13,988 nt of DNA, from contig QNDJ01000010.1 in assembly GCA_003644825.1 (NCBI GenBank), forward strand, positions 1 to 13,988. Direction: 5' to 3'. This DNA comes from B21-G16 sp003644825 [NCBI: Candidatus Zhuqueibacterota bacterium] (GTDB taxonomy: Bacteria > SM23-31 > B21-G16). The translations under genes and the position numbers were made by a program. Within the stretch, counting starts at the first letter, position 1; every line of letters starts with the position of its first letter. Below, piece after piece: positions 1 to 13,988 of this stretch. The notes beneath the pieces are model-generated. The model made no database searches. It worked only from the letters and a program-made list of their open reading frames with translations, and was not told the origin of the DNA.

Positions 1-3000
1 AGATAATGTTAAATCCCTATACTCAATAGACTCATTATTAAAGTTTATATCAATATAGAAGGATGACACAGATTTAACAAATTCAGCGCTAATCTTTAAT
101 AATAATTCGTCATTATTCCTGTCCATATTTTTGAATGTATTGATTGAAATATCAGGATTTTTTATGAAAGAAATTTTAGAAAATAAACTATCTTCAACAG
201 GTAAAGTATTGATTATTCCGGTAACCTTTAATAGTATATAATAAGCGTCATAAGCAGAGACTTCTCCATTGTAGGTTACATCGGCTTTTTCCTTCTGGGA
301 GGACGAGAATTCAATCTGCCCAACTACATACTGTAGAACCCATGATGCATCATAGGAAGTAACACTTTTATCACCCGTAACATCCCCGTATCTCGGTTTT
401 ACTCTAATCGTTGTGGAAGAAAGATCCAGTGGAGGAGTTCCTTCATTAAAATAAGCTTCAACAAATTGAATATATGTAGTATCTCTCATAGCTTCATCTT
501 TAACTGAAAATATCAGGTTCATAGTTCTGTCTGTTCCTCTCAATGTATCCAGGCAATAAGCTGCAACCTTAAGTGTTCCCGGAACAATATTACTTAATAT
601 ATTTAAAGGATTCCCAAACCCTGTAGTATCAATCCCAATCCCATTTAACGTGGTTGAATCATAAGCCAGTTTAAATTGAAAACTTGTTATTCCACCATTA
701 TCAAGATTACCGAAAAAGATAAGAGGAATAGTTAAAGTATCACCATTTGTAACAAGAGTATCGGTAATTCCCAGTTGCAGTGCATAATTTGATATTGTAA
801 CACTTACCTGAACACTGAACTGACTTTCCTGACCGGCACTATCAACAGCTGATATTATGTAATAATACGTTTCACTGGGAACAACATTATTATCAATGTA
901 AAAAGTATCCTCTCTTGATGCTTCACCAATGATGTTATCCAGTGAAGGGGTAAAACCATCAGTTTGACTTCTGTAAATAATATAATAATCGAGATCTGGT
1001 TCAATATTAGCACTCCAGGTTAATCGAACCTGACCTGCCAATCCTTCAATAGAAAAATTCTGAGGCTGCCACGGTGGAGGATTAAATTCCTCATTAACAG
1101 CAAGATACGTATCATCATCTGCTCCTCCAATCGCATAAAGTTTTGTATCATTTAACACTGCGGAGCTGTGTTCTCTTCTTATCGTAATCATTGTATCTCC
1201 TGTAGTCCAGGTATCTGTTATCGGGTCATAAATTTCAACAATACTTAAATTACCTGAACCGTTTTCTCCACCAATTGCATAAATTCTTCCAGCAATCGTA
1301 TTTGCAGTTAAGTTTCTTCTTGCGGTCGGCATAGATGTTTTTGTATTCCACTGGTCACTGGCAGGGTCATATTCTTCAACTGTCGAAAGATAACTACCAT
1401 TATACCCTCCAATGACATATATTTTCCCATTTACAGAAGCAGCAGCATGCCCCCATCTTGGAGTGGGAATGGAAGCTTTATATGTCCAGGTACTGGTAGC
1501 AGGGTCATATTCTTCAACGTGATTCTGATACTGTGTTCCACCTCTTCGCCCACTTATTGCATATAATTTTCCATTACAGGTTACAACAGCAAGGTCTCTC
1601 CTGGACCTATCCATCGGTGTAATTGTTTCCCAGGAATCCGTAGAAGGATCATAGGCTTCGACAGTGGTATACCTGGTATTCCCTTTTCGACCTCCAACAA
1701 TATACAACTTCCCATTAAGTACATCACCTCCAAAATCTTCTCTGTCAGAAGGTAAAGGAGTTTTTGTACTCCAGCTATTTGTTTCCGGGTCATATTCCTC
1801 TACATAACTGGTTCTTCCAGAGGCATCCCTTCCTCCAACAGTATAAATTTTTCCATTTATTGCACCCGAAATTGAGCCTCTTCTTTCATAATTCATCGGT
1901 GATTTTGTTTGCCAGGAGTAATCTATCTCTGGAGAAGGTGTTGCACTAACCTGATTGCTGAACCCGCTGTAATTCCAGGCGCTATCAACAGCAGATATTC
2001 TATAATAATAAGTCTGGTTATTAAATACCGAATTGTCAGTATAAATTGTATCGGTGTAGGATACAACATCAATAGAGTCTTCTGATGCAGGGGTAAATCC
2101 ATCTGTAAGACTTCTAAAAATCACATACTGTAATAAATCATTTTCCGGATTTTTATTCCACTTAAGTTCAACCTGTTTATTTCCACTGACTGCTGTAAGA
2201 TTTAGAGGAGTTGATGGAGCAATTGTATCAAAGGGAGTAGCACTGACTTCACCGCTGAACTCACTTTCATTGTTAAAGCTATCAACAGCTGATATTTTAT
2301 AATAATAAGTTGTATTTACGGTTATAGCACTATCCAGATAAGCAGTATCAGGTGAAAAAACCTCCGTTAAAGAGTCTGACGTTGAAGGTGAAAATCCCTC
2401 GTTTATGCTTCTATAAATTATATATTTAAGTAAATCATTTTCAGTGTTAGGATTCCATGATACCGAAATATACTTTTGACCGGGTACAGCAGTCAAATTC
2501 ACAGGAATATCAGGAGCAGTTGTATCAAAAGGAGTTCCTGAAGCCTGGGCACTGTATTCACTCCGATTAAATGCAGTATCAACAGCACAAATTCTATAGT
2601 AATAGGTTGTTCCAACTGTTACTGAAGAATCTCTGAAAACAGAATCAGGATAGCTTACAAGTGTCAGAGAATCAGAAGAGGTTGGAGTAAAACCATCTGT
2701 TAAACTCCTGTATATTATATAATGCAACATATCATCTTCTGAATTAGATTTCCAGCTTAAATCAAGGTATCTTTCACCAGAATTGACGGTAAAGTTTTCC
2801 GGCACTGCTGGTGGAACAGTATCAATAGGAACACCCTCCGCCTGATTGCTGAATCCACTTTCATTTCCTGAACTATCCACTGCTGATACCCTGTAGTAAT
2901 ATATTTGACCAACAATAACAGAAGAATCTGTAAAAACTGTATCAGGTTTTAATACATATCCTATAGAATCAGAAGGTGCTGGGGTAAATCCATCTGTTTG

Positions 3001-4611
3001 ATTTCTGTATATCTTATAATGCAGTAAATCTGATTCGGGTGAAGAATTCCATACCAGTCGAATACTTTCGTTTAAACCTGTTGCTGTAAGATTTTGCGGT
3101 GGTGATGGTGGAATTGTATCTGCCGGTGTAGCAGAAACTTCTTCACTGAATTCACTTTCATTTCCTGAACTATCCACCGCTGAAATCCTGTAATAATAAG
3201 TAATATTATTAACTAAATTACTATCTACAAATATAGTATCAGGTTTTAAAACACTACCAACCGAATCGGATGAGGTTGGAGTAAAACCAGAACTCAAATT
3301 CCTGTAAATATTATATTGTTTTAAATCTGTTTCAGGGTTAATACTCCATTTTAATGTTACTTTTTTATTGTCAGGTAATGCTACAAGATTTTGCGGCACA
3401 GAAGGAGCAACAGTATCCTGAGGAAAAGCACTTACCTGAGAACTGAACTCGCTCATATTATTGTTGGTATCAACTGCCGAAATCCGATAATAATAAATTG
3501 TATTATTCTGAACATTATTATCAGTAAATGTTGTATCAGGATATAGTGTCCTGCCGATAGAATCCGATGGAGATGGACTAAATCCATCAATCAGACTTCT
3601 ATATATATTGTATTGAAGAATGTCATCCTCGTTATTCTGATTCCATTTTAAGTTTACAATTTTATTTCCAGCAACTGCAGTAAGTCCATCTGGAGTAAAT
3701 GGAATAGCAGGGCTGAATTCTTCATTTACAGATAGGATAGAAGTATTTGCACCACCAATTGCATATATTTTATTATCAATTACACAGGAACCAAAAGATT
3801 CTCTCGCAGTCGGCATAGGTTCAGCCTGACTCCAGGTTTCTGTTATAAGGTTATATTCCTCAACCACAGACTCATATCCATCTTTGTATCCACCAATAGC
3901 AAATAATTTATCTTCTACAACCTGAACTTCAAGGTTTCTTCTTCTTGTTGGCATAGAAGTTTTTGTTATCCAATTATTCGATGACGGGTCATATACTTCA
4001 AAAGTATTGAGGACGCCGCTTGAATTTACTCCACCTATAATATATATTTTTCCATTATAAGCTACTGCAGATGCACCTGCTCTTTCTGTTGGCATAGATG
4101 ATACTACAGCCCAGCTATCTGTGGATAAATCATATTCTTCCACAGTGAATAGATATTGATTATTTCCCCAGCCACCAAAAATATAAATTCTGTTATTTAA
4201 TTCTGCAACACAATAATCTGACCTATCAGAAGTCGTTCCAGATTTAGTATTCCATGTATCCGTTGCAGGGTCATACTCTATTACCCATATTAGTGAATTT
4301 CTTCTTCCAACAACGTAAATCCTGCTGTTAATAACAACACTCTTTACTGTAAAATATTCATCAGGCATAGAAGACTTTGATGACCAGCTATCTGTTTCAG
4401 GATTATATTCTTCAACATTACGGGTAAATTGATACTTATCGGTAAAGCCACCTATCGCATACAGTTTTCCATCAACAGAATTAACTGTTAAATCCCTTCT
4501 ATTTGTTGGCATAGAAGTTTTTGTTGTCCAGCGCTGGGCAAATAAAATAGATGGTATGGTAATCAATATTAAAAAACTTAAATATGAAATATTTTTCCTT
4601 TTAAAAAACAT
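1..4611 (-). CDS. Secreted Kelch/FN3/cohesin/dockerin modular protein, 3' end outside window
   Basis: The reading frame is open from ATG 4609-4611 to base 1, at least 1537 residues with no stop, so the C-terminus is missing. A weak AAGGT lies 4 bases before the start. Residues 1-25 form a signal peptide (KRK, hydrophobic core, LFA|Q). Residues about 26-298 carry six Kelch blades (e.g. LYAIGGF, IYIFGGW, IYAIGGA). Residues 300-893 carry six FN3 domains, each with a YYYRISAVD-type strand. A second set of six Kelch blades spans about 894-1175, and a seventh FN3 spans about 1177-1275. Residues about 1278-1402 look like a cohesin beta-sandwich. Residues about 1406-1465 are a dockerin: two calcium-loop halves, GDVTGDKSVTSYD from residue 1409 and ADVTYNGEVSAYD from 1443. 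After it another cohesin-like strand pattern begins. The protein is probably exported and binds glycans or proteins, possibly assembling with partners through cohesin-dockerin contacts. No enzyme domain is visible. The domain calls are made by eye and the ligand is unknown. Confidence 0.9.
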   Translation of the reverse strand, partial: MFFKRKNISYLSFLILITIPSILFAQRWTTKTSMPTNRRDLTVNSVDGKLYAIGGFTDKYQFTRNVEEYNPETDSWSSKSSMPDEYFTVKSVVINSRIYVVGRRNSLIWVIEYDPATDTWNTKSGTTSDRSDYCVAELNNRIYIFGGWGNNQYLFTVEEYDLSTDSWAVVSSMPTERAGASAVAYNGKIYIIGGVNSSGVLNTFEVYDPSSNNWITKTSMPTRRRNLEVQVVEDKLFAIGGYKDGYESVVEEYNLITETWSQAEPMPTARESFGSCVIDNKIYAIGGANTSILSVNEEFSPAIPFTPDGLTAVAGNKIVNLKWNQNNEDDILQYNIYRSLIDGFSPSPSDSIGRTLYPDTTFTDNNVQNNTIYYYRISAVDTNNNMSEFSSQVSAFPQDTVAPSVPQNLVALPDNKKVTLKWSINPETDLKQYNIYRNLSSGFTPTSSDSVGSVLKPDTIFVDSNLVNNITYYYRISAVDSSGNESEFSEEVSATPADTIPPSPPQNLTATGLNESIRLVWNSSPESDLLHYKIYRNQTDGFTPAPSDSIGYVLKPDTVFTDSSVIVGQIYYYRVSAVDSSGNESGFSNQAEGVPIDTVPPAVPENFTVNSGERYLDLSWKSNSEDDMLHYIIYRSLTDGFTPTSSDSLTLVSYPDSVFRDSSVTVGTTYYYRICAVDTAFNRSEYSAQASGTPFDTTAPDIPVNLTAVPGQKYISVSWNPNTENDLLKYIIYRSINEGFSPSTSDSLTEVFSPDTAYLDSAITVNTTYYYKISAVDSFNNESEFSGEVSATPFDTIAPSTPLNLTAVSGNKQVELKWNKNPENDLLQYVIFRSLTDGFTPASEDSIDVVSYTDTIYTDNSVFNNQTYYYRISAVDSAWNYSGFSNQVSATPSPEIDYSWQTKSPMNYERRGSISGAINGKIYTVGGRDASGRTSYVEEYDPETNSWSTKTPLPSDREDFGGDVLNGKLYIVGGRKGNTRYTTVEAYDPSTDSWETITPMDRSRRDLAVVTCNGKLYAISGRRGGTQYQNHVEEYDPATSTWTYKASIPTPRWGHAAASVNGKIYVIGGYNGSYLSTVEEYDPASDQWNTKTSMPTARRNLTANTIAGRIYAIGGENGSGNLSIVEIYDPITDTWTTGDTMITIRREHSSAVLNDTKLYAIGGADDDTYLAVNEEFNPPPWQPQNFSIEGLAGQVRLTWSANIEPDLDYYIIYRSQTDGFTPSLDNIIGEASREDTFYIDNNVVPSETYYYIISAVDSAGQESQFSVQVSVTISNYALQLGITDTLVTNGDTLTIPLIFFGNLDNGGITSFQFKLAYDSTTLNGIGIDTTGFGNPLNILSNIVPGTLKVAAYCLDTLRGTDRTMNLIFSVKDEAMRDTTYIQFVEAYFNEGTPPLDLSSTTIRVKPRYGDVTGDKSVTSYDASWVLQYVVGQIEFSSSQKEKADVTYNGEVSAYDAYYILLKVTGIINTLPVEDSLFSKISFIKNPDISINTFKNMDRNNDELLLKISAEFVKSVSSFYIDINFNNESIEYRDLTLS
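1933..3714 (-). repeat. Six tandem FN3-coding repeats, exact 297-bp period
   Basis: Within the Kelch/FN3 gene, domain starts fall at residues 300, 399, 498, 597, 696 and 795. Each domain is therefore exactly 99 codons with no indel. From the second repeat on, each opens with a DT(V/I/T)(A/P)P segment followed by (V/T/I/P)P and an N(L/F) pair. Each also has the W-N-P-E/D-D-L, IYRS, GFTP, SDS and YYYRISAVDS-like landmarks. This points to amplification by duplication. The seventh FN3 (residues about 1177-1275) is separate, after the second Kelch propeller. Confidence 0.85.
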
Positions 4612-4700
4612 TTTTACCTTGTGCAAAATATTAAATTTATTTTTTAAAATTTAAAGAATTATTTAGATAAAACAAAGGAAAATATTCCACACTTAAAACT

Positions 4701-5042
4701 TTATTTCTTTCTGGGTTTGTATCTATCTTTATCCTCGAAAATATCCACTGCAAAGAACCTCGTTTTGAATACAGCAGAATGAACAACTCCTTTTGGTATA
4801 TGATACCTGTCTCCTTTGGTTAGAATTTTCTTTTCACCACCAATTATTAAATGCATTTCCCCTTCAATTACAATTCCCCATTGTTCACCGTGAGTGTGAG
4901 CTGGAACTTCACCGATAGGGTCAATATCGAAAAATATGACCTGATGGTTCTCACCCTGTAATATTTTCCCTCTTACTCCTTTATAAGGAATATCTGCATC
5001 AGGTAAATTCTTGATTAAATCAGGATAAATACTGTCAGTCAT
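4701..5042 (-). CDS. Small single-domain cupin protein
   Basis: A 113-residue protein made of one cupin beta-barrel. Cupin motif 1 is seen as G44-x4-H49-T-H51-G-E53-Q54 followed by a glycine-rich turn (IEGEM). Motif 2 is seen as G77-x5-P83-K-G85-x2-H88. The metal site would use H49, H51 and H88 plus E53 or Q54. The acidic ligand sits only two residues after HxH, closer than the usual three or four intervening residues. There is no signal peptide, so it is cytoplasmic. Stand-alone cupins of this size include sugar-binding, isomerase and unknown-function members, and the sequence does not decide which. The start is supported by a strong AGGAGG 6 bases upstream. It lies 89 bases upstream of the Kelch/FN3 gene on the same strand and is divergent from the EamA transporter. 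Confidence 0.85.
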   Translation of the reverse strand: MTDSIYPDLIKNLPDADIPYKGVRGKILQGENHQVIFFDIDPIGEVPAHTHGEQWGIVIEGEMHLIIGGEKKILTKGDRYHIPKGVVHSAVFKTRFFAVDIFEDKDRYKPRKK

Positions 5043-5048
5043 TACAAA

Positions 5049-5054
5049 CCTCCT
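5049..5054 (-). promoter_or_regulatory. Ribosome binding site of the cupin gene
   Basis: AGGAGG on the minus strand, 6 bases before the ATG at 5040-5042. It is the best Shine-Dalgarno match noted in the window and fixes the cupin start. Confidence 0.8.
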
Positions 5055-5071
5055 GTAAGGTTTAATCTATA

Positions 5072-5101
5072 ATATTAATTTATTTCTACTATATTTTTCA
5101 A
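5072..5101 (-). promoter_or_regulatory. Possible sigma70-like promoter for the cupin gene
   Basis: On the minus strand TTGAAA (5096-5101) is followed after 18 bases by TAATAT (5072-5077), about 30 bases before the cupin start. The -35 matches five of six consensus bases and the -10 four of six. The region is very AT-rich, so chance matches are likely, and this phylum may not use this consensus. Confidence 0.3.
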
Positions 5102-5155
5102 TTTAACTAAAAAATAGATTTTAACCAATATCTTTTGTATATTTAAGACTCATAA

Positions 5156-6073
5156 ATGAAGGATAGAGAACCATTGATAAAGGAAAAAGTGGACAAAAGA
5201 CTCTTCGGATTTTTCTTTATAATACTTGGCTCTATTTGTGCAGGAACCCTCGGTGTTTTTGTAAAATTTGGATACAAGTATGGTGCGACACCGATAACCC
5301 TGTTATTCATAAGGTATATTACTGGCACTGCCTTTTTCTGGATTGTAACTTTACTGTTAAGATATAAAATCGAAAGAATTGGAAAGAAAGACCTGTTGAT
5401 TCTGTTTTCAGGCTCAATATTCCTTTTTATTTCATCAATGTGTTACTTTTATGCTTTAACATATATTACCATACCTTTAGCCATAACAATTGTTTATCTT
5501 TATCCTGCTCTTGTTACATTACTCGCTTTTGCATTATTCAAAGAAAAATTAGGAAAAATAAAAACTGTTGCTTTATTTTTAAGCTTTGCAGGTTGTATTA
5601 TACTAACAAAACTGTTTAATTCATCAGGCATTATTTTAAATCCAACAGGGATAATACTCTCTTTAGTATGTGCTTTTTCAGTGGCAATGTATACAATAAT
5701 TATTCAAAAAACCTTAAATAAATATAGAATTTTTGATACAGCAGTATATTTCACTACTTTTTCCGGGGTTATGATTTCGATTTTTATACTACCGAGATAC
5801 CAGATTTTAATATCTTTAAATGTAAAAGTATGGTTGGTCGGAATCTTTATGGCTTTTTTCACCATATTTTTAACAAGAATCCTGTTTTTTCTCGGGATTA
5901 AGTATGTTGGTGCATCAAGGATGTCCATCATTGCGAGTTCCGAGTTGATTTTTGCCTCTATATTAGCTTTTATATTTCTTGGCGAAAGCCTTGATATAGT
6001 TCAGGGTATCGGTGCTCTTCTAATATTTATTGGAGCAATACTGGTAAATTTTGATCATCCTGGAAAATTGTAA
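5156..6073 (+). CDS. EamA-family drug/metabolite transporter
   Basis: A 305-residue inner-membrane protein with about ten hydrophobic helices in two EamA halves (about 17-150 and 163-300). Each half ends in the family's repeated signature: YLYPALVTLLAFALFKEKL at 114-132 and SSELIFASILAFIFLGESL at 261-279. The family exports or imports small metabolites (amino acids, nucleotide sugars, drugs), and the substrate cannot be told from sequence. The ATG at 5156 has no clear Shine-Dalgarno before it. AAGGA occurs inside the reading frame at 5159-5163 and again at 5180-5184, the latter 4 bases before an in-frame GTG (5189). Translation may therefore begin at codon 12, just before the first helix. It diverges from the cupin gene and lies 99 bases before the COG0212 gene, so co-transcription with the downstream pair is possible. 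Confidence 0.9.
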   Translation: MKDREPLIKEKVDKRLFGFFFIILGSICAGTLGVFVKFGYKYGATPITLLFIRYITGTAFFWIVTLLLRYKIERIGKKDLLILFSGSIFLFISSMCYFYALTYITIPLAITIVYLYPALVTLLAFALFKEKLGKIKTVALFLSFAGCIILTKLFNSSGIILNPTGIILSLVCAFSVAMYTIIIQKTLNKYRIFDTAVYFTTFSGVMISIFILPRYQILISLNVKVWLVGIFMAFFTIFLTRILFFLGIKYVGASRMSIIASSELIFASILAFIFLGESLDIVQGIGALLIFIGAILVNFDHPGKL

Positions 6074-9874: not shown

Positions 9875-10973
9875 TTATTTTTCAATCAATTTCTTTGCTT
9901 TATAGTCTGGATAATAATCATAATACATATCTACAATCTCACCTTTTTCGTTTTTATCAAAGATAATTTTAGTCCAGAATCCTCTATGAAAAAATTCAGA
10001 TTCAGATAAAGGTATAAGCAAAGCATCAGACATTCTTGAACCCCTTAAATACAGGTTGCCATCTTTCTCAAATAATGTTACTGTATAATCAGGAATAAAA
10101 AAATCAGAACCAAATTTATAATGACCAGCTATAGCATCTAAAACTATCTGGCTTAATTTTACAGGTTTCAACTCCGGGAGTTTATATTTTTCACCAAATA
10201 TTATTTCTGCAAGGTCAATACCAATCTGAGTTGCAACAGGTGTTTAATTATTTCCAAGAACTATAATGCACATATCATCGTCAATATAACGTGCAAGATA
10301 AGTTGAAAAACCCGGACTTCTACCATTTATATAAATCACCTTTCTATTAAACTTCTTCCGGATAAACCAGCCATACCCAAAATTATCTGCATACATTGTA
10401 AATATTTTATTAATAGAGTTCTTCCTTAAAAGTTTTTCTGTATATAGAGTTCTATCCCATTTATACAAATCTAAAACAGTTTAGTAAAGAGAACCATTCC
10501 CGGTTTTAATTGACCAGTCAAGATAAGGTGCTTTCTCGATACATATCTATAATTTCTTCAATGGAGTGCGGGAATTTTGAGTCTCTATCATAATCAGAAA
10601 TAAACTTAATTAATTTATCATTTACGTTCAAAAGACCTCTCTCCTGAAGAATCATAATAGCAGTTGCAGTAAAAGATTTTGATATAGATGCAAGATGAAA
10701 TCTTGTTTCTGGCGTATTAGGCACATTAAGCTCATAATTTGCCATTCCATATCCCTTGCATATCAATATTTTTCCTTCCCGGGCAATCAAAATCGAACCG
10801 CTAAAATTCCCACCGTCAAGATATGCCTTAATATACTCATCAACCTTCGCCTCAAAACTTTTAACTTTGTTCTGATGAGTTTGAAGATAGACATTACTTC
10901 CGGGAGAAACCAAAAAAAATAAAGCTATAAAAAAGAGTACGAATCTTCTGAATTTCATTATTAACACATCCAT
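9875..10973 (-). pseudogene. Degraded serine beta-lactamase-like hydrolase (PF00144 type)
   Basis: Three stretches of one former gene read in order on the minus strand. The first (10973 to 10518) starts at ATG 10973, or more likely ATG 10958, and has a signal peptide (MKFRRFVLFFIALFFLV). It also has the FHLASISKSFTA segment with the catalytic SxxK. It then jumps directly to SIEEIIDMYRE, losing the usual HLLTHTSG segment. The second stretch is in another frame (APYLDWSIKTG onward), so about 65 residues including the YxN motif are gone. It is cut by TAA at 10481-10483 and then runs as LYKWDRTLYTEKLL to SPGFSTYLARYIDDD. In it the usual HGG before RSPGF reads ING, which removes the third catalytic motif. 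A second TAA (10244-10246) interrupts it before TPVATQIGIDLAEIIFGEKY. The third stretch, in the same frame, is the C-terminal domain ending at 9875. The protein would once have been a secreted or periplasmic peptidase/esterase. The lesions leave no active enzyme. Confidence 0.85.
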
Positions 10974-11084: not shown

Positions 11085-12386
11085 TCAATACCGAATCCAT
11101 TTAAAAACTTCCTTCAGTGAAGGTTTTTTACCATACATTAAAATTCCGACTCTATATATTTTTGCAACCAGCATAATTAATAATACTGTTGAAATTCCCA
11201 TTGTAAATATTGATAAGAATGCACCTTTTGGTAAGGAAGGGTCTGTTACGGCAATCCTTGCAAACATAACAACCGGTGTAAAACAAGGTATCAGAGATAC
11301 CCAGAAAGCGGTAGAAGTCTCAGGGTTCTGGGCTACTGAAAACATTATAAAATATCCTATAAGAACAAGAATAATTATGGGAAATAAAAATTGTTGACCC
11401 TCATCTTCTGTATTAACCATTGCACCAATTGCTGCAAATAAACTAGCATAAAATATATATCCCATAAAAAAGAAAAGAAGCATAAAGGCAAATACTACTG
11501 GTGAAAATTCTATATTCCGAACAATGTTTAAAATCTCAGGTCTATTTACACCAAATCTGACAAACAATACTTCACCATAGGTAACAGCCAATAAAATAAT
11601 TACCCCAACCACAAATAGTTGTGTAAGACCCAGAAGACAAATTCCTGCAATTTTACCAAGCATTAGTTCAACAGGTTTGATTGAGGAAATAATCATCTCA
11701 GTTATTCTCTGACTTTTCTCTTCGATAACACTTCTTGTTATTGTCTGTCCAAATACCATAATTAAAATAAGCAGCAGATAAGAAAGAATATACGTTAAAA
11801 TAAAGCTTCCTTCTCCACTTTTTCTGATTTCCCCTTCTTTTGTGACCTGTTTACTAACTAACCTGACACGTCCTAATGCCATTTCTTTGCGTATTTCATC
11901 GGGCGAAAGCCCTTTCCTTTCCAGCCGCAAATTTGTAACTATCCTTGAAAGAGCATTTGAAAATCCACGCTGTTCATCAAAATTGCTGACACTTCTTGCA
12001 GCATATCTAACTTCCCTAACATCAATCAAATCTTCAGGAATTAATAGATATCCATCAATCTTTTTTTCAAGAACCAGTTTTTGATATTCTTCAATAATAG
12101 TATCAAGATTCTCAGCAGAAACCTTCTTTTCAAAAAATAAATATTTTGGTTCACCGTTTTCAAGGGTATCAGAAAGCATATTTACAAAATCTTTATAAAT
12201 CTGACCTGTTTGATCTATTACATAATATTTTTTTGTAGATGGACGAAAAAACTTTGCAAAAAGAAAAATACCTACAAATAAAAATGTCAATATCGTTGGA
12301 AATATCAGGGTACCTATAATGAATCCTTTGGTTCTAACCCTTGTTACATATTCCCTTTTTATGACCGCAAGAACTTTTTTATTCAT
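11085..12386 (-). CDS. ABC-2 type (NatB-like) transporter permease
   Basis: A 433-residue inner-membrane subunit of an ABC-2/NatB-type exporter. The N-terminal MNKKVLAVIKREYVTRVRTKGFI is followed by a first helix (about 22-45), a long extracytoplasmic domain (about 46-193) and then about five helices (195-216, 242-270, 295-323, 332-352, 390-410). Family landmarks are the EEKSQRITEMIISSIKPVE turn at 222-240 before the GK-containing helix, and NTEDEGQQFLFPIIILVLI at 325-343. Such subunits need a separate ATP-binding protein, usually encoded immediately upstream in the same operon. Here the upstream side is gene-free repeat DNA and the downstream neighbour is a pseudogene, so the partner is missing from the window. 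AAGGA at 12395-12399, 8 bases before the ATG, supports the start. Confidence 0.9.
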   Translation of the reverse strand: MNKKVLAVIKREYVTRVRTKGFIIGTLIFPTILTFLFVGIFLFAKFFRPSTKKYYVIDQTGQIYKDFVNMLSDTLENGEPKYLFFEKKVSAENLDTIIEEYQKLVLEKKIDGYLLIPEDLIDVREVRYAARSVSNFDEQRGFSNALSRIVTNLRLERKGLSPDEIRKEMALGRVRLVSKQVTKEGEIRKSGEGSFILTYILSYLLLILIMVFGQTITRSVIEEKSQRITEMIISSIKPVELMLGKIAGICLLGLTQLFVVGVIILLAVTYGEVLFVRFGVNRPEILNIVRNIEFSPVVFAFMLLFFFMGYIFYASLFAAIGAMVNTEDEGQQFLFPIIILVLIGYFIMFSVAQNPETSTAFWVSLIPCFTPVVMFARIAVTDPSLPKGAFLSIFTMGISTVLLIMLVAKIYRVGILMYGKKPSLKEVFKWIRY

Positions 12387-12620
12387 AAAATTAATCCTTC
12401 GATGTTCTTTATTAAAAACTGTTATTCTCGATTTATCCGGTTATATCGAACTTGATTCTATCAGGATTTTATTTGTTATTATTGTAAAATATGAAATCTT
12501 CTTTCATTTAGTAAATTACTTCTACTATTTTTTTAAATTTAATAAACTATCGTTAAAAAATAAATAAAATTTAAATAAATATTTTTTGTATATGCTTATG
12601 TAGGGAAGCTTAGTTTTTTA
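12387..12620. other. AT-rich leader upstream of the permease, no gene seen
   Basis: Very AT-rich non-coding DNA holding the permease ribosome binding site (AAGGA on the minus strand at 12395-12399) and presumably its promoter, which cannot be picked out with confidence. Short minus-strand frames here end quickly. I saw no remnant of an ABC ATPase. Confidence 0.5.
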
Positions 12621-12625
12621 ATCAA

Positions 12626-12834
12626 GAGCTCTGTTATGAGCGATATGTTTGTAGAATGAAGGATTTTAGATAATATTGAGCTCCGTAGGAGCTGTATGTA
12701 AAAGGTTAGGCAAGGATACCTGACCTACAAACCTTGCTTTAATACATCCGTAGAGCAGGTACCTGCTCTATTCTCATTATTGTAGAGATTGCTTCGCCCG
12801 TATGGGCAAGCAATGACAACTCAAATTTTATAAA
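12626..12834 (+). repeat. Composite palindromic repeat unit 1 (A-spacer-A'-B-C-D)
   Basis: About 209 bp. Element A (12626-12657) is a GCTC/GAGC hairpin with the tail CGATATGTTTGTAGAAT. The spacer GGATTTTAGATAATATT (12661-12677) comes next. A' (12678-12700) has the stem GCTCC-GTA-GGAGC. B (12703-12728) pairs AGGTTAGG with CCTGACCT through one G-T wobble. C (12751-12770) is a perfect 20-base palindrome, TAGAGCAGGT followed by its complement. D (12788-12814) pairs ATTGCTT with AAGCAAT and GCCC with GGGC around a bulged C, followed by GACA. The same elements in the same order follow in unit 2. Confidence 0.85.
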
Positions 12835-13050
12835 GAGCTCCGTCAGGAGCGGTATGTTTGTAGAATAAAGATTTTAAAAAATATTGAACTCTGTAGGAAT
12901 GGGATGTATCAGGTCAGGCAGGGATGCCTGACCTACTGCTGTGTTTAATTCCATCTGTAGAACAAGTACTCGCTTGTAAATATTTATAACATATTCAGGA
13001 GATTGCCACGCTCTATATAGGGCTCGCAATGACAGCTATTGTTTAGTCAA
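12835..13050 (+). repeat. Composite palindromic repeat unit 2 (A-spacer-A'-B-C-D)
   Basis: About 216 bp, directly following unit 1 in the same orientation. A (12835-12866) has the stem GCTCC-GTCA-GGAGC and the tail GGTATGTTTGTAGAAT. The spacer AGATTTTAAAAAATATT is at 12869-12885. A' (12886-12908) is degenerate. B (12911-12934) is a perfect 10-bp stem, AGGTCAGGCA/TGCCTGACCT, with loop GGGA. C (12955-12980) keeps ACAAG/CTTGT. D (13002-13030) keeps ATTGC/GCAAT, a diverged interior and the GACA tail. Confidence 0.85.
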
Positions 13051-13125
13051 AAGCTCCGTCAGGAGCGATATGCTTGTAGAATTGAGGATTTTAGATGATA
13101 TTGAGCTCCGATAGGAGCGATATGG
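13051..13125 (+). repeat. Composite palindromic repeat unit 3, A-spacer-A' only
   Basis: A (13051-13082) has GCTCC/GGAGC and the tail CGATATGCTTGTAGAAT. The spacer GGATTTTAGATGATATT (13086-13102) nearly equals that of unit 1. A' (13103-13125) has the stem GCTCC-GATA-GGAGC. The B-C-D part is absent and different hairpins follow. Confidence 0.85.
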
Positions 13126-13132
13126 AATGTTA

Positions 13133-13390
13133 AAATCTCGGTAAAGATTTATAGGTTATGGAAATGTCATTTAATTCTTTTTTCCGCACCAGAATCGAAT
13201 TCTGGTGCTGGAATAATCCAATGGTAAGTCATTGAAATGACTGTTTCAAAGTATCGTAATCCTATTGTTAATATCCCAAAAACAGTCTCTTCAGAGACTT
13301 CCAGATTTTTTTTATCCACTACCAGAATTCTATTCTGGTAGTGATTCGTTACAATTCAAATATTTACAATCTCAAGCTGGAAGCTTGAGA
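13133..13390. repeat. Cluster of six unrelated hairpins
   Basis: Stems seen: AAATCT/AGATTT (13133-13150, 6 bp). GCACCAGAAT/ATTCTGGTGC (13186-13208, 10 bp). AGTCAT/ATGACT with loop TGAA (13227-13242). AGTCTC/GAGACT with loop TTCA (13284-13299). CACTACCAGAAT/ATTCTGGTAGTG (13317-13343, 12 bp). TCTCAAGCT/AGCTTGAGA (13370-13390, 9 bp). The second and fifth share the core ACCAGAAT/ATTCTGGT and so form a further repeat family. No open reading frame of note is present. None has an obvious T-run making it a classical terminator. Confidence 0.8.
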
Positions 13391-13423
13391 TACACTGATT
13401 CATAATCAATATTGATATTTATA

Positions 13424-13492
13424 TGTCGCTCCTACGGAGCTCTATTGTTGTTTTTTATCTATTTTCTACAAACATATCGCCCCTAACGGGGC
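13424..13492 (-). repeat. Reversed A-spacer-A' pair
   Basis: Read on the minus strand, A (13462-13492) has GCCCC/GGGGC with the tail CGATATGTTTGTAGAAAA. A spacer of different sequence follows, then A' (13424-13442) with GCTCC-GTA-GGAGC. It is inverted relative to units 1-3, so with unit 3 (13051-13125) it makes a long inverted repeat around the hairpin cluster. The A stem has C-G pairs where other copies have T-A. Confidence 0.85.
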
Positions 13493-13681
13493 TAAAAGGA
13501 ACAGTGAATTTCGCCGATTTAATGAATTTTAGTTTTTATAGAAACAACGAATTACACTGATTACACTAATTGTTCTTTTTATGCTTCCTTACTATATAGT
13601 TTCGTTTTATAAATCAGTTTTTTGGAGCAGTTACCTGCTATATTCTTAATTGTTAAAAAGGTTAATTTCCAATGATAGGTA
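13493..13681. repeat. Spacer DNA with one lone C-family palindrome
   Basis: GAGCAG-TTAC-CTGCTA with the following TATTCTTAATTGT (about 13624-13652) matches element C and its downstream bases in unit 1 (12752-12783). The rest, including 13493-13620, shows no gene, RNA or clear repeat. Confidence 0.6.
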
Positions 13682-13855
13682 TGATTTTGATAAAAAGCTC
13701 CGTAGGAGCTGTATGTAAAAGGTCAGGCAGGGATGCCTGACCTACAAGTCTATGTTAAATTCAATCTGTAGAACGAGTATCTGTTCCTGAATGGCTTTCA
13801 TACAGTCAGGAGTTTGCTTCGCCCGTACGGGCAAGCAATGGCTCCATAAGGAGCA
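13682..13855 (+). repeat. Composite palindromic repeat unit 4 (spacer-A'-B-C-D-A)
   Basis: The A element at the left is lost, but a spacer-like TGATTTTGATAAAAA (13682-13696) remains. A' (13695-13716) has GCTCC-GTA-GGAGC and the GTATGTAAA tail seen in unit 1. B (13720-13743) is identical in its stem and loop to that of unit 2. C (13767-13786) has GAAC/GTTC ends. D (13813-13839) has GCCCGTACGGGC inside TTGCTT/AAGCAA. A short A-type hairpin GCTCC-ATAA-GGAGC (13841-13855) closes the unit, where the next unit would begin. Confidence 0.85.
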
Positions 13856-13988
13856 ATATAAAGGAAATGACTGCCTTTTTTATCCTCAGAGTATGAAGTT
13901 ATAATTCAATAAATCAAACTTCATAAGAAACTCTGTGAAGATTTAAAACATTACCTGAAATCCAATCTTACATCAAATAATATAATAA
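13856..13988. other. Window-end sequence without recognised features
   Basis: AT-rich DNA with only a marginal CTTCA/TGAAG inverted repeat near 13919-13940. No gene start, RNA or member of the A-D repeat families was seen. Confidence 0.5.

Follow-up and report, generated by a model that had tools for sequence, protein, structure and literature searches.

A mosaic of palindromes in a Candidatus Zhuqueibacterota genome and its probable link to TnpAY1 transposases of subclass 1.2

The TnpAY1 transposases of subclass 1.2 are described as low-copy-number enzymes of ~148 aa with the motifs DH[IV]H, WQ and Y---Q--HH, found mostly in Cyanobacteria and Bacteroidetes; in the accessible parts of that account they generally lack typical terminal structures and have no repetitive extragenic palindrome (REP) assigned to them (Quentin et al. 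2018, PMC6006769). For subclass 2.4 (motif NH[IFV]H) the same account describes GTAG-tagged hairpins lying in frame between the HUH and Y motifs, while the CGTC repeats are characterized, in the accessible parts of their description, by a CGTC or TGTC tag, a stem starting with AT, a short loop and a CCA tail (Di Nocera et al. 2013, PMC3733652). The role of subclass 1.2, a set of IS200 relatives without insertion sequence (IS) properties or repeats, was open, and our literature search, with preprints and most subscription papers outside it, returned no report of repeats for these enzymes. Here we analyze an intergenic array of ~1.2 kb, with hairpins in fixed order, at positions 12,624-13,860 of a stretch of 13,988 nucleotides (hereinafter the window; contig QNDJ01000010.1, our C10) from a Candidatus Zhuqueibacterota metagenome-assembled genome (MAG; GCA_003644825.1, 2.48 Mb in 493 contigs, 83.6% complete). 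The array is probably a mosaic resembling the bacterial interspersed mosaic elements (BIMEs), whose backbone, a two-hairpin element that we term the A-A' doublet, is the cognate repeat of the subclass 1.2 transposases.

The doublet is laid out as an A hairpin, ~9 nt, the motif RTAG, a spacer of ~22 nt and a second hairpin, A', which places RTAG on the 3' side of the A hairpin; element A lacks a GT[AG]G at its own 5' foot. The Pfam Y1_Tnp profile picks out two places in the genome, an intact gene on contig C338 and a fragment on contig C167. The former is an intact frame of 150 aa (PF01797, 104.5 bits, cutoff 23) with the motifs PDHIH, FQWQ and YINNQEKHH. It passes the NCBIfam IS200/IS605 profile NF033573 (83.9 bits, cutoff 55), falls under the cutoff of NF047646, the profile for REP-associated tyrosine transposases (RAYTs; 36.1 bits, cutoff 80), without a Y---NP motif, and its best matches among solved structures are IS608 transposase entries (E 4.5e-8). 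By length and motifs, the predicted enzyme fits TnpAY1 subclass 1.2. A-A' doublets lie on both sides of the gene, inverted and pointing at it, with a third farther out; the matches of the doublet model R1 (see below) at this locus, L011, are at 68-148 plus, 628-709 minus and 794-875 plus. It is the one intact gene in the genome, where, at 83.6% completeness, more copies could be missing. The initial annotation of the window had noted that no transposase is nearby: none was seen in the window, with 8 of the 13 listed frames compared with Pfam, yet the genome itself has the two Y1 places, one of them flanked by A elements. Its likening of the hairpins to BIMEs and REPs served in trans by a TnpA/RAYT-type enzyme now has a direct genetic association behind it.

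The same association is seen at related genes. We found 51 related loci in named genomes, mostly of Bacteroidota, with others in MAGs titled Ignavibacteria, Poribacteria, Planctomycetota, Brocadiaceae and Verrucomicrobia; the Y..Q..HH signature is present in 43 of the 51. Across these 43 loci, the density of a strict hairpin followed by RTAG[AG]A is 0.643 per kb up to 350 nt from the gene, compared with 0.004 at distances over 1 kb and 0.014 in shuffled sequences; such a hairpin is present at 15 loci, 2 of which have it on both sides. Whole doublets with perfect stems number 20 in the 42.0 kb near the gene versus 1 in 232.7 kb farther away (16 of 43 loci), and 33 versus 10 when one mismatch is allowed (23 of 43 loci). 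The model R1 was built from 26 aligned doublets, hand-picked from 20 related loci, none of them from the window genome. In the window it recovers four doublets (E 1.9e-15, 4.1e-11, 5.2e-10 and 6.8e-8) and a fifth, partial one (0.0085), and it yields 65 matches at E<=0.1 on 57 other contigs of the genome; these form, together with the window, a sample of 58 of the 493 contigs, 56 chosen for matching the array (the window among them) and two for their Y1 genes, and figures drawn from this sample describe such contigs only. At E<=1e-3, 98 of 99 R1 matches across the 51 loci fall in the 97 kb that lie no farther than 1 kb from the gene, and one in the other 271 kb, training copies included, and 64 of the 98 near matches point at the gene. 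Held-out signature loci have a match in 17 of 25 cases, with L096, L113 and L116 looking close to training loci. A control of 29 loci of other Y1 genes (subclass assigned for few) gave two R1 matches, at E 0.021 and 0.3, and the three loci L134-136, whose Y motif is 1.1-like, gave none. Because doublets lie within 1 kb of 37 of the 51 related genes as well as beside the C338 gene, the published absence of a REP-like repeat from subclass 1.2 does not hold here, and the description of the subclass is revised. The occurrence of doublets beside genes in several phyla also substantiates the earlier impression that A-like palindromes exist in other genomes.

In Pedobacter, most of the orthologs compared share the same neighbor genes, which is what one would expect if the gene is RAYT-like and inherited vertically. 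In Mucilaginibacter, the tnpA genes at L103, L109, L111, L121 and L100, though not at L099, stand next to the end of what is apparently one gene, i.e. a conserved locus. At L100, from Mucilaginibacter sp. OK268, partial doublets of ~71 nt are arranged in tandem at 4463-5181, adjoining tnpA.

In the doublet alignment, the stems pair in 91.7% of 312 cells, and changes are two-sided in 58 cases and one-sided in none (the cells are not independent events, the loci being related); sliding the pairing partner destroys the signal. As one-sided changes of the G-U type are absent, this pattern favors stems conserved as DNA hairpins rather than as RNA. The proposal that the array is a structured RNA fares poorly on these counts and in Rfam, where positions 12300-13988 obtained best matches of E 0.54 and 0.96, below the gathering scores. 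Since the stems covary, the A core of the window genome itself (GGAGCGATATGTTTGTAG, <=4 mismatches) proved too narrow a probe for the 51 loci, with 16 matches against 2 for the reversed pattern.

Whole-genome scans with R1 (E<=0.01, at most 150 candidates scored per genome) detected 62 places in the window genome and matches in 18 of 19 other gene-bearing genomes, a hand-chosen set: at least 149 in the Poribacteria MAG, 120 in the Verrucomicrobiia MAG, 75 in Mucilaginibacter pankratovii, 49 in the Ignavibacteria MAG and 1-31 in the others. Thus, many gene-bearing genomes contain tens to more than 100 copies of the doublet. Five relatives from the phylum of the window genome, with at most weak gene matches, have 0, 0, 0, 12 (G004) and 2 (G005) places. 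Among 80 Mucilaginibacter-genus genomes, the gene is detected in 45 (E<=1e-40), and doublets (E<=1e-3) are present in 45 of 45 with the gene versus 17 of 35 without it (Fisher p 1.3e-8, kinship ignored), with a median of 33 doublets versus 0 (at most 57 scored); at a gene threshold of 1e-20 the proportions are 47 of 48 and 15 of 32. The gene remains at 1-6 matches per gene-positive genome of this set. The set also harbors a second Y1 group, with ~33% identity to the query; one genome, G133, has 49 doublets and only a gene of this group.

The array itself lies in the final 1.4 kb of the window, which follow the 5' end of a minus-strand gene for an ABC-2 type permease (open reading frame 11085-12386), and past 12567 there is no frame of >=80 aa among the listed open reading frames. 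Mechanical repeat finding recovers direct repeats at 12626, 12835 and 13051 (A) and at 12679, 12887 and 13696 (A' to B), which, with the copies elsewhere in the genome, bears out the four hairpin families, their fixed order and the coordinates first given for them. On reading, units 1 and 2 consist of A-A'-B-C-D, unit 3 has only A-A', and the last unit is A'-B-C-D-A. The A-A'-B-C-D layout thus stands; the supposed gap at 13150-13680, however, holds an E-F-G-E-H palindrome block, which is repeated in order elsewhere and lies between doublets of opposite orientation, and C is the weakest family, with four copies over threshold on the 58 contigs, the window's C1 among them. The full order is A-A', B, C, D, A-A', B, C, D, A-A', E, F, G, E, H, inverted A'-A, K, A'-B-C-D-A:

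12624..12705, plus strand: A-A' doublet 1 (hairpin, GATATGTTTGTAG, spacer, hairpin); R1 from foreign tnpA flanks, E 4.1e-11
12704..12728, minus strand: B1, GTAG-tagged hairpin; pattern match with 3 mismatches
12750..12770, plus strand: C1, GTAG-tagged hairpin (GTAGAGCAGGTACCTGCTCTA); sequence and family match
12787..12818, plus strand: D1 palindrome (other strand TGTCATTGC...GCAATC); repeat finding, family search and tag analysis
12833..12913, plus strand: A-A' doublet 2, with A' degraded; R1, E 6.8e-8
12912..12936, minus strand: B2, GTAG-tagged hairpin; exact pattern match
12957..12979, plus strand: C2, GTAG-tagged hairpin, diverged; by sequence, under the family-search threshold
13001..13034, plus strand: D2 palindrome; family search
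13049..13131, plus strand: A-A' doublet 3, bounding the E-F-G-E-H block on the left; R1, E 5.2e-10
13184..13212, no strand assigned: E1 palindrome (CACCAGAATCGAATTCTGGTG); repeat finding, family search and alignment
13223..13243, plus strand: F palindrome (GGTAAGTCATT..AATGACT); 29 copies on the 58 contigs, alignment
13276..13305, plus strand: G palindrome (AGTCTCTTCAGAGACT); 29 copies on the 58 contigs, alignment
13317..13343, no strand assigned: E2 palindrome (CTACCAGAATTCTATTCTGGTAG); repeat finding, family search and alignment
13368..13392, no strand assigned: H palindrome (TCTCAAGCTGGAAGCTTGAGA); 20 copies on the 58 contigs
13415..13496, minus strand: inverted A-A' doublet 4, bounding the E-F-G-E-H block on the right; R1, E 1.9e-15
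13542..13557, plus strand: K repeat (AAACAACGAATTACAC); 33 copies on the 58 contigs
13693..13722, plus strand: A' opening the last unit (partial doublet); R1, E 0.0085
13721..13745, minus strand: B3, GTAG-tagged hairpin; exact pattern match
13768..13790, plus strand: C3, GTAG-tagged, diverged; by sequence, under the family-search threshold
13810..13840, plus strand: D3 palindrome, 94% identity to D1 over 31 nt; repeat finding
13840..13860, plus strand: closing A-type hairpin without a clear RTAG; sequence and family search

Elsewhere in the window, a frame of 151 aa (10518-10973) matches the Pfam Beta-lactamase (serine hydrolase) model over no more than its first 85 positions and looks truncated, and positions 1-4626 encode a large protein with Kelch repeats, a dockerin type I domain and a weak, below-cutoff similarity to cohesin, its gene being cut by the contig end.

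The array DNA has at least 152 matches in the genome, the window itself counted (40 of 117 candidates scored); the A core (<=3 mismatches) occurs in 56 copies against 2 for the reversed pattern, and the B pattern in 52 against 0. An order test on 47 arrays with 388 elements gave a neighbor-order score of 703 versus 346 +/- 10 (0 of 2000 permutations as high), and by this test the array is BIME-like, an ordered mosaic of several REP types. Gaps are near-constant across arrays (A-a 23-24, D-A 28, B-D 68, F-G 37 and G-E 11 nt). In 25 copies of the segment anchored on F, identity is 0.895 in palindrome columns and 0.686 in spacers: the spacers are homologous too, so composites have been copied, not single hairpins. 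The suggestion that the composite is the recurring unit is therefore borne out by both alignment and order test, with a composite larger and more mixed than claimed, and the findings that might have undone it did not arise: the hairpins are genome-wide, their order is non-random and they belong to no Rfam family, with D resembling published CGTC-type repeats in part. Of 64 doublets, 63 are not mostly within stop-to-stop frames of >=120 codons, though such frames make up 82% of the examined contigs, and 56 lie within 1.5 kb of a contig end, a zone with 47% of the bases. Neighboring doublets of one array differ in orientation in 24 of 32 pairs. Copies of the A-A'-FGEH-A'-A block remain homologous outside the doublets, into D on one side and K on the other; K as a clean insertion between E2 and H was ruled out, as the difference between the two sub-types of the block goes beyond an insertion. 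A search of ten other genomes (G001-G007, G015, G025 and G032) with the composite DNA gave just three matches, weak, of the A type and all in G004.

A simpler unit of dispersal is seen in the Poribacteria MAG (G042), where many of the listed doublets are abutting inverted pairs. In 15 chosen units of 154-173 bp, identity is 0.89-0.90 just inside the edges and 0.31 and 0.29 outside (chance 0.27). The edges are mostly TC|TTYAG ... CTRAA|GA, at the outer side of the A hairpins, and the stretch from the A hairpin through RTAG is nearly invariant, which the inner spacer is not. These sharp-edged inverted pairs are comparable to the REPINs, i.e. inverted REP pairs, an arrangement that is not clean in the window genome. 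Five units from two Mucilaginibacter-set genomes have the reverse arrangement, with A inside. At the G042 loci L163-L167, L171, L178 and L179, doublets also lie within a longer repeated context, and most copies end in TTAACTGGCACAAGTCGT or near it.

Among the remaining elements, B and C have GTAG directly before the hairpin, as in GTAG REPs. The tag place of B is TGTA or CGTA, meaning GTA of the tag plus the preceding base, in 52 of 63 cores, and the eight commonest words on the opposite side include neither; a hairpin of >=7 bp follows GTAG 28 times per 1000, B copies counted, and follows nine other tetranucleotides 0-2.9 times. D has a TGTC tag before ATTGCGAG (ATTGC), and TGTCATTGC is present in most of the 25 copies inspected out of 65; its loops are longer than those of CGTC repeats and its tails mostly not CCA. 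The C167 fragment displays DHFH, WQ and YILNNP with one stop, and has GTAG-tagged hairpins in frame between the HUH and Y motifs; these resemble the in-frame hairpins of subclass 2.4, whereas DHFH does not fit its NH[IFV]H. At this locus (L012, 2-2020), the Y1/RAYT-like part continues in frame, with the one stop inside, into a DNA methyltransferase-like part (DPPY, by eye), a possible insertion or fusion.

These observations suggest a mechanism in which the A-A' doublets are mobile, probably moved by subclass 1.2 enzymes acting on single-stranded DNA. The enzyme, a single-domain HUH protein close to IS200 TnpA, would bind the A hairpin on single-stranded DNA and cut near the conserved RTAG ~9 nt 3' of it. 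Doublets or inverted doublet pairs would then spread in trans, in the manner proposed for REPs and REPINs with their RAYTs, and the gene would stay at few copies. In the window genome, doublets would have been combined with the GTAG-tagged hairpins (B, C), the TGTC-tagged palindrome (D) and the other palindromes (E-K), and whole composites would subsequently have been copied to new intergenic sites, either by transposition from A ends or by recombination.

Three other explanations have to be set against this. A and A' might be the left and right ends of an ordinary IS200-type IS, with the dispersed copies as dead remnants of the kind seen in miniature inverted-repeat transposable elements; the C338 TnpA does score over the IS200/IS605 cutoff (83.9 vs 55) and under the RAYT one (36.1 vs 80), and IS608 transposase provides its best-matching structures. 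However, there is one intact gene here and 1-6 matches per gene-positive genome in the Mucilaginibacter set, most compared Pedobacter orthologs sit between the same neighbors, the doublets are inverted and face the gene (C338; 64 of 98 near matches) rather than forming two same-strand ends, and the fetched G042 units, inverted pairs of 154-173 bp, leave no room for a gene, all of which makes ordinary IS ends unlikely. Alternatively, the doublet could mimic a junction of right and left ends, with A as the right end, RTAG as the cleavage site and A' as the left end, making A'-B-C-D-A the mobile unit. The last window unit indeed spans A' to A, and the spacing of ~9 and ~22 nt around RTAG is one that we take to resemble the ends of IS608. 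We set this register of the unit aside as not the best, and consider it very improbable, given that the G042 edges coincide with the outer side of the A hairpins rather than with RTAG, and that the composites of the window genome extend beyond RTAG.

It is also conceivable, if quite unlikely, that the palindromes are kept as RNA (terminators, mRNA stabilizers or small RNAs) or as protein binding sites, with their order arising from recombination alone. Their intergenic position and their better conservation relative to spacers (0.895 vs 0.686, 25 copies) would accord with such roles, but the lack of an Rfam match, the absence of one-sided (G-U type) changes in 312 cells and the differing orientation of neighboring doublets (24 of 32 pairs) speak against them, and the link to one transposase subclass would be left unexplained. 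Several observations also weigh against the view of A-A' as the cognate repeat of subclass 1.2 enzymes. At E<=1e-3, the gene is flanked by doublets on both sides at no more than 9 of 51 loci; 8 of the 43 signature loci are without an R1 match; and Sphingobacterium paludis, a gene-bearing genome (locus L125), has none genome-wide. Conversely, 17 genomes of the Mucilaginibacter set as well as G004 (12) and G005 (2) have doublets with no detected subclass 1.2 gene, and these may be relics or cases of missed genes. The 19 surveyed genomes were chosen from the 51 and 12 of them had supplied training doublets, and the Mucilaginibacter-genus genomes are linked by shared ancestry. At orthologous tnpA loci of Pedobacter and Mucilaginibacter, regions too rearranged for clean presence/absence calls, neither an empty site nor movement was seen. 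In the alignment, further pair types are not above shuffles (14 vs 15.0). Finally, the homology of composites runs past the doublets into D and K, the sharp edges of the Poribacteria MAG being absent in the window genome, and palindromes E-K recur in fixed order without a candidate enzyme.

A defined DNA substrate makes the subclass 1.2 enzymes testable, extends the repeat-transposase pairs by one whose enzymes are of class 1 and offers an origin for one kind of intergenic palindrome in Bacteroidota and uncultured phyla. In the window genome, ordered composites have arisen from the merging of several repeat families, which may be one reason for its 493 contigs. Going a step further, we lean slightly toward seeing subclass 1.2 as another kind of RAYT that evolved on its own through domestication from the IS200 side and is widespread outside Bacteroidota. 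Such enzymes would maintain genome-wide, REPIN-like populations of a DNA element of two hairpins, in inverted doublets, with a 3' RTAG where REPs have a 5' GTAG, the other palindromes being passengers in the large composites of the window genome.

Among known systems, REP/RAYT pairs, REPINs and BIMEs provide the closest parallels: a small, few-copy HUH/Y1 enzyme flanked by an intergenic, dispersed hairpin repeat, inverted pairs, and mosaics. The flanking of the gene by genome-dispersed repeats, typical of RAYTs, is seen on both sides at C338 and in 9 of 51 relatives (E<=1e-3). However, the enzyme here is of class 1 (Y---Q--HH), whereas RAYTs are of class 2 (Y---NP), and the repeat is a two-hairpin doublet with RTAG ~9 nt 3' of the hairpin, in contrast to the GT[AG]G at the 5' foot of REPs. 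With the GTAG and CGTC REPs (PMC3733652), compared here through the accessible part of their description rather than letter by letter, other parts of the mosaic have tags in common: B and C have the 5' GTAG, and the TGTC of D is an allowed variant of the CGTC tag. With IS200/IS605 (subclass 1.1) the system shares a single-domain TnpA and subterminal hairpins; it differs in that no multicopy IS with near-identical copies is seen (one intact gene), the same locus is occupied in several Pedobacter species and the flanking doublets are mostly inverted. Subclass 1.2, as far as the accessible account goes (PMC6006769), agrees in length, DH[IV]H, WQ, Y---Q--HH and low copy number, to which the present loci add a cognate doublet and relatives in more phyla.

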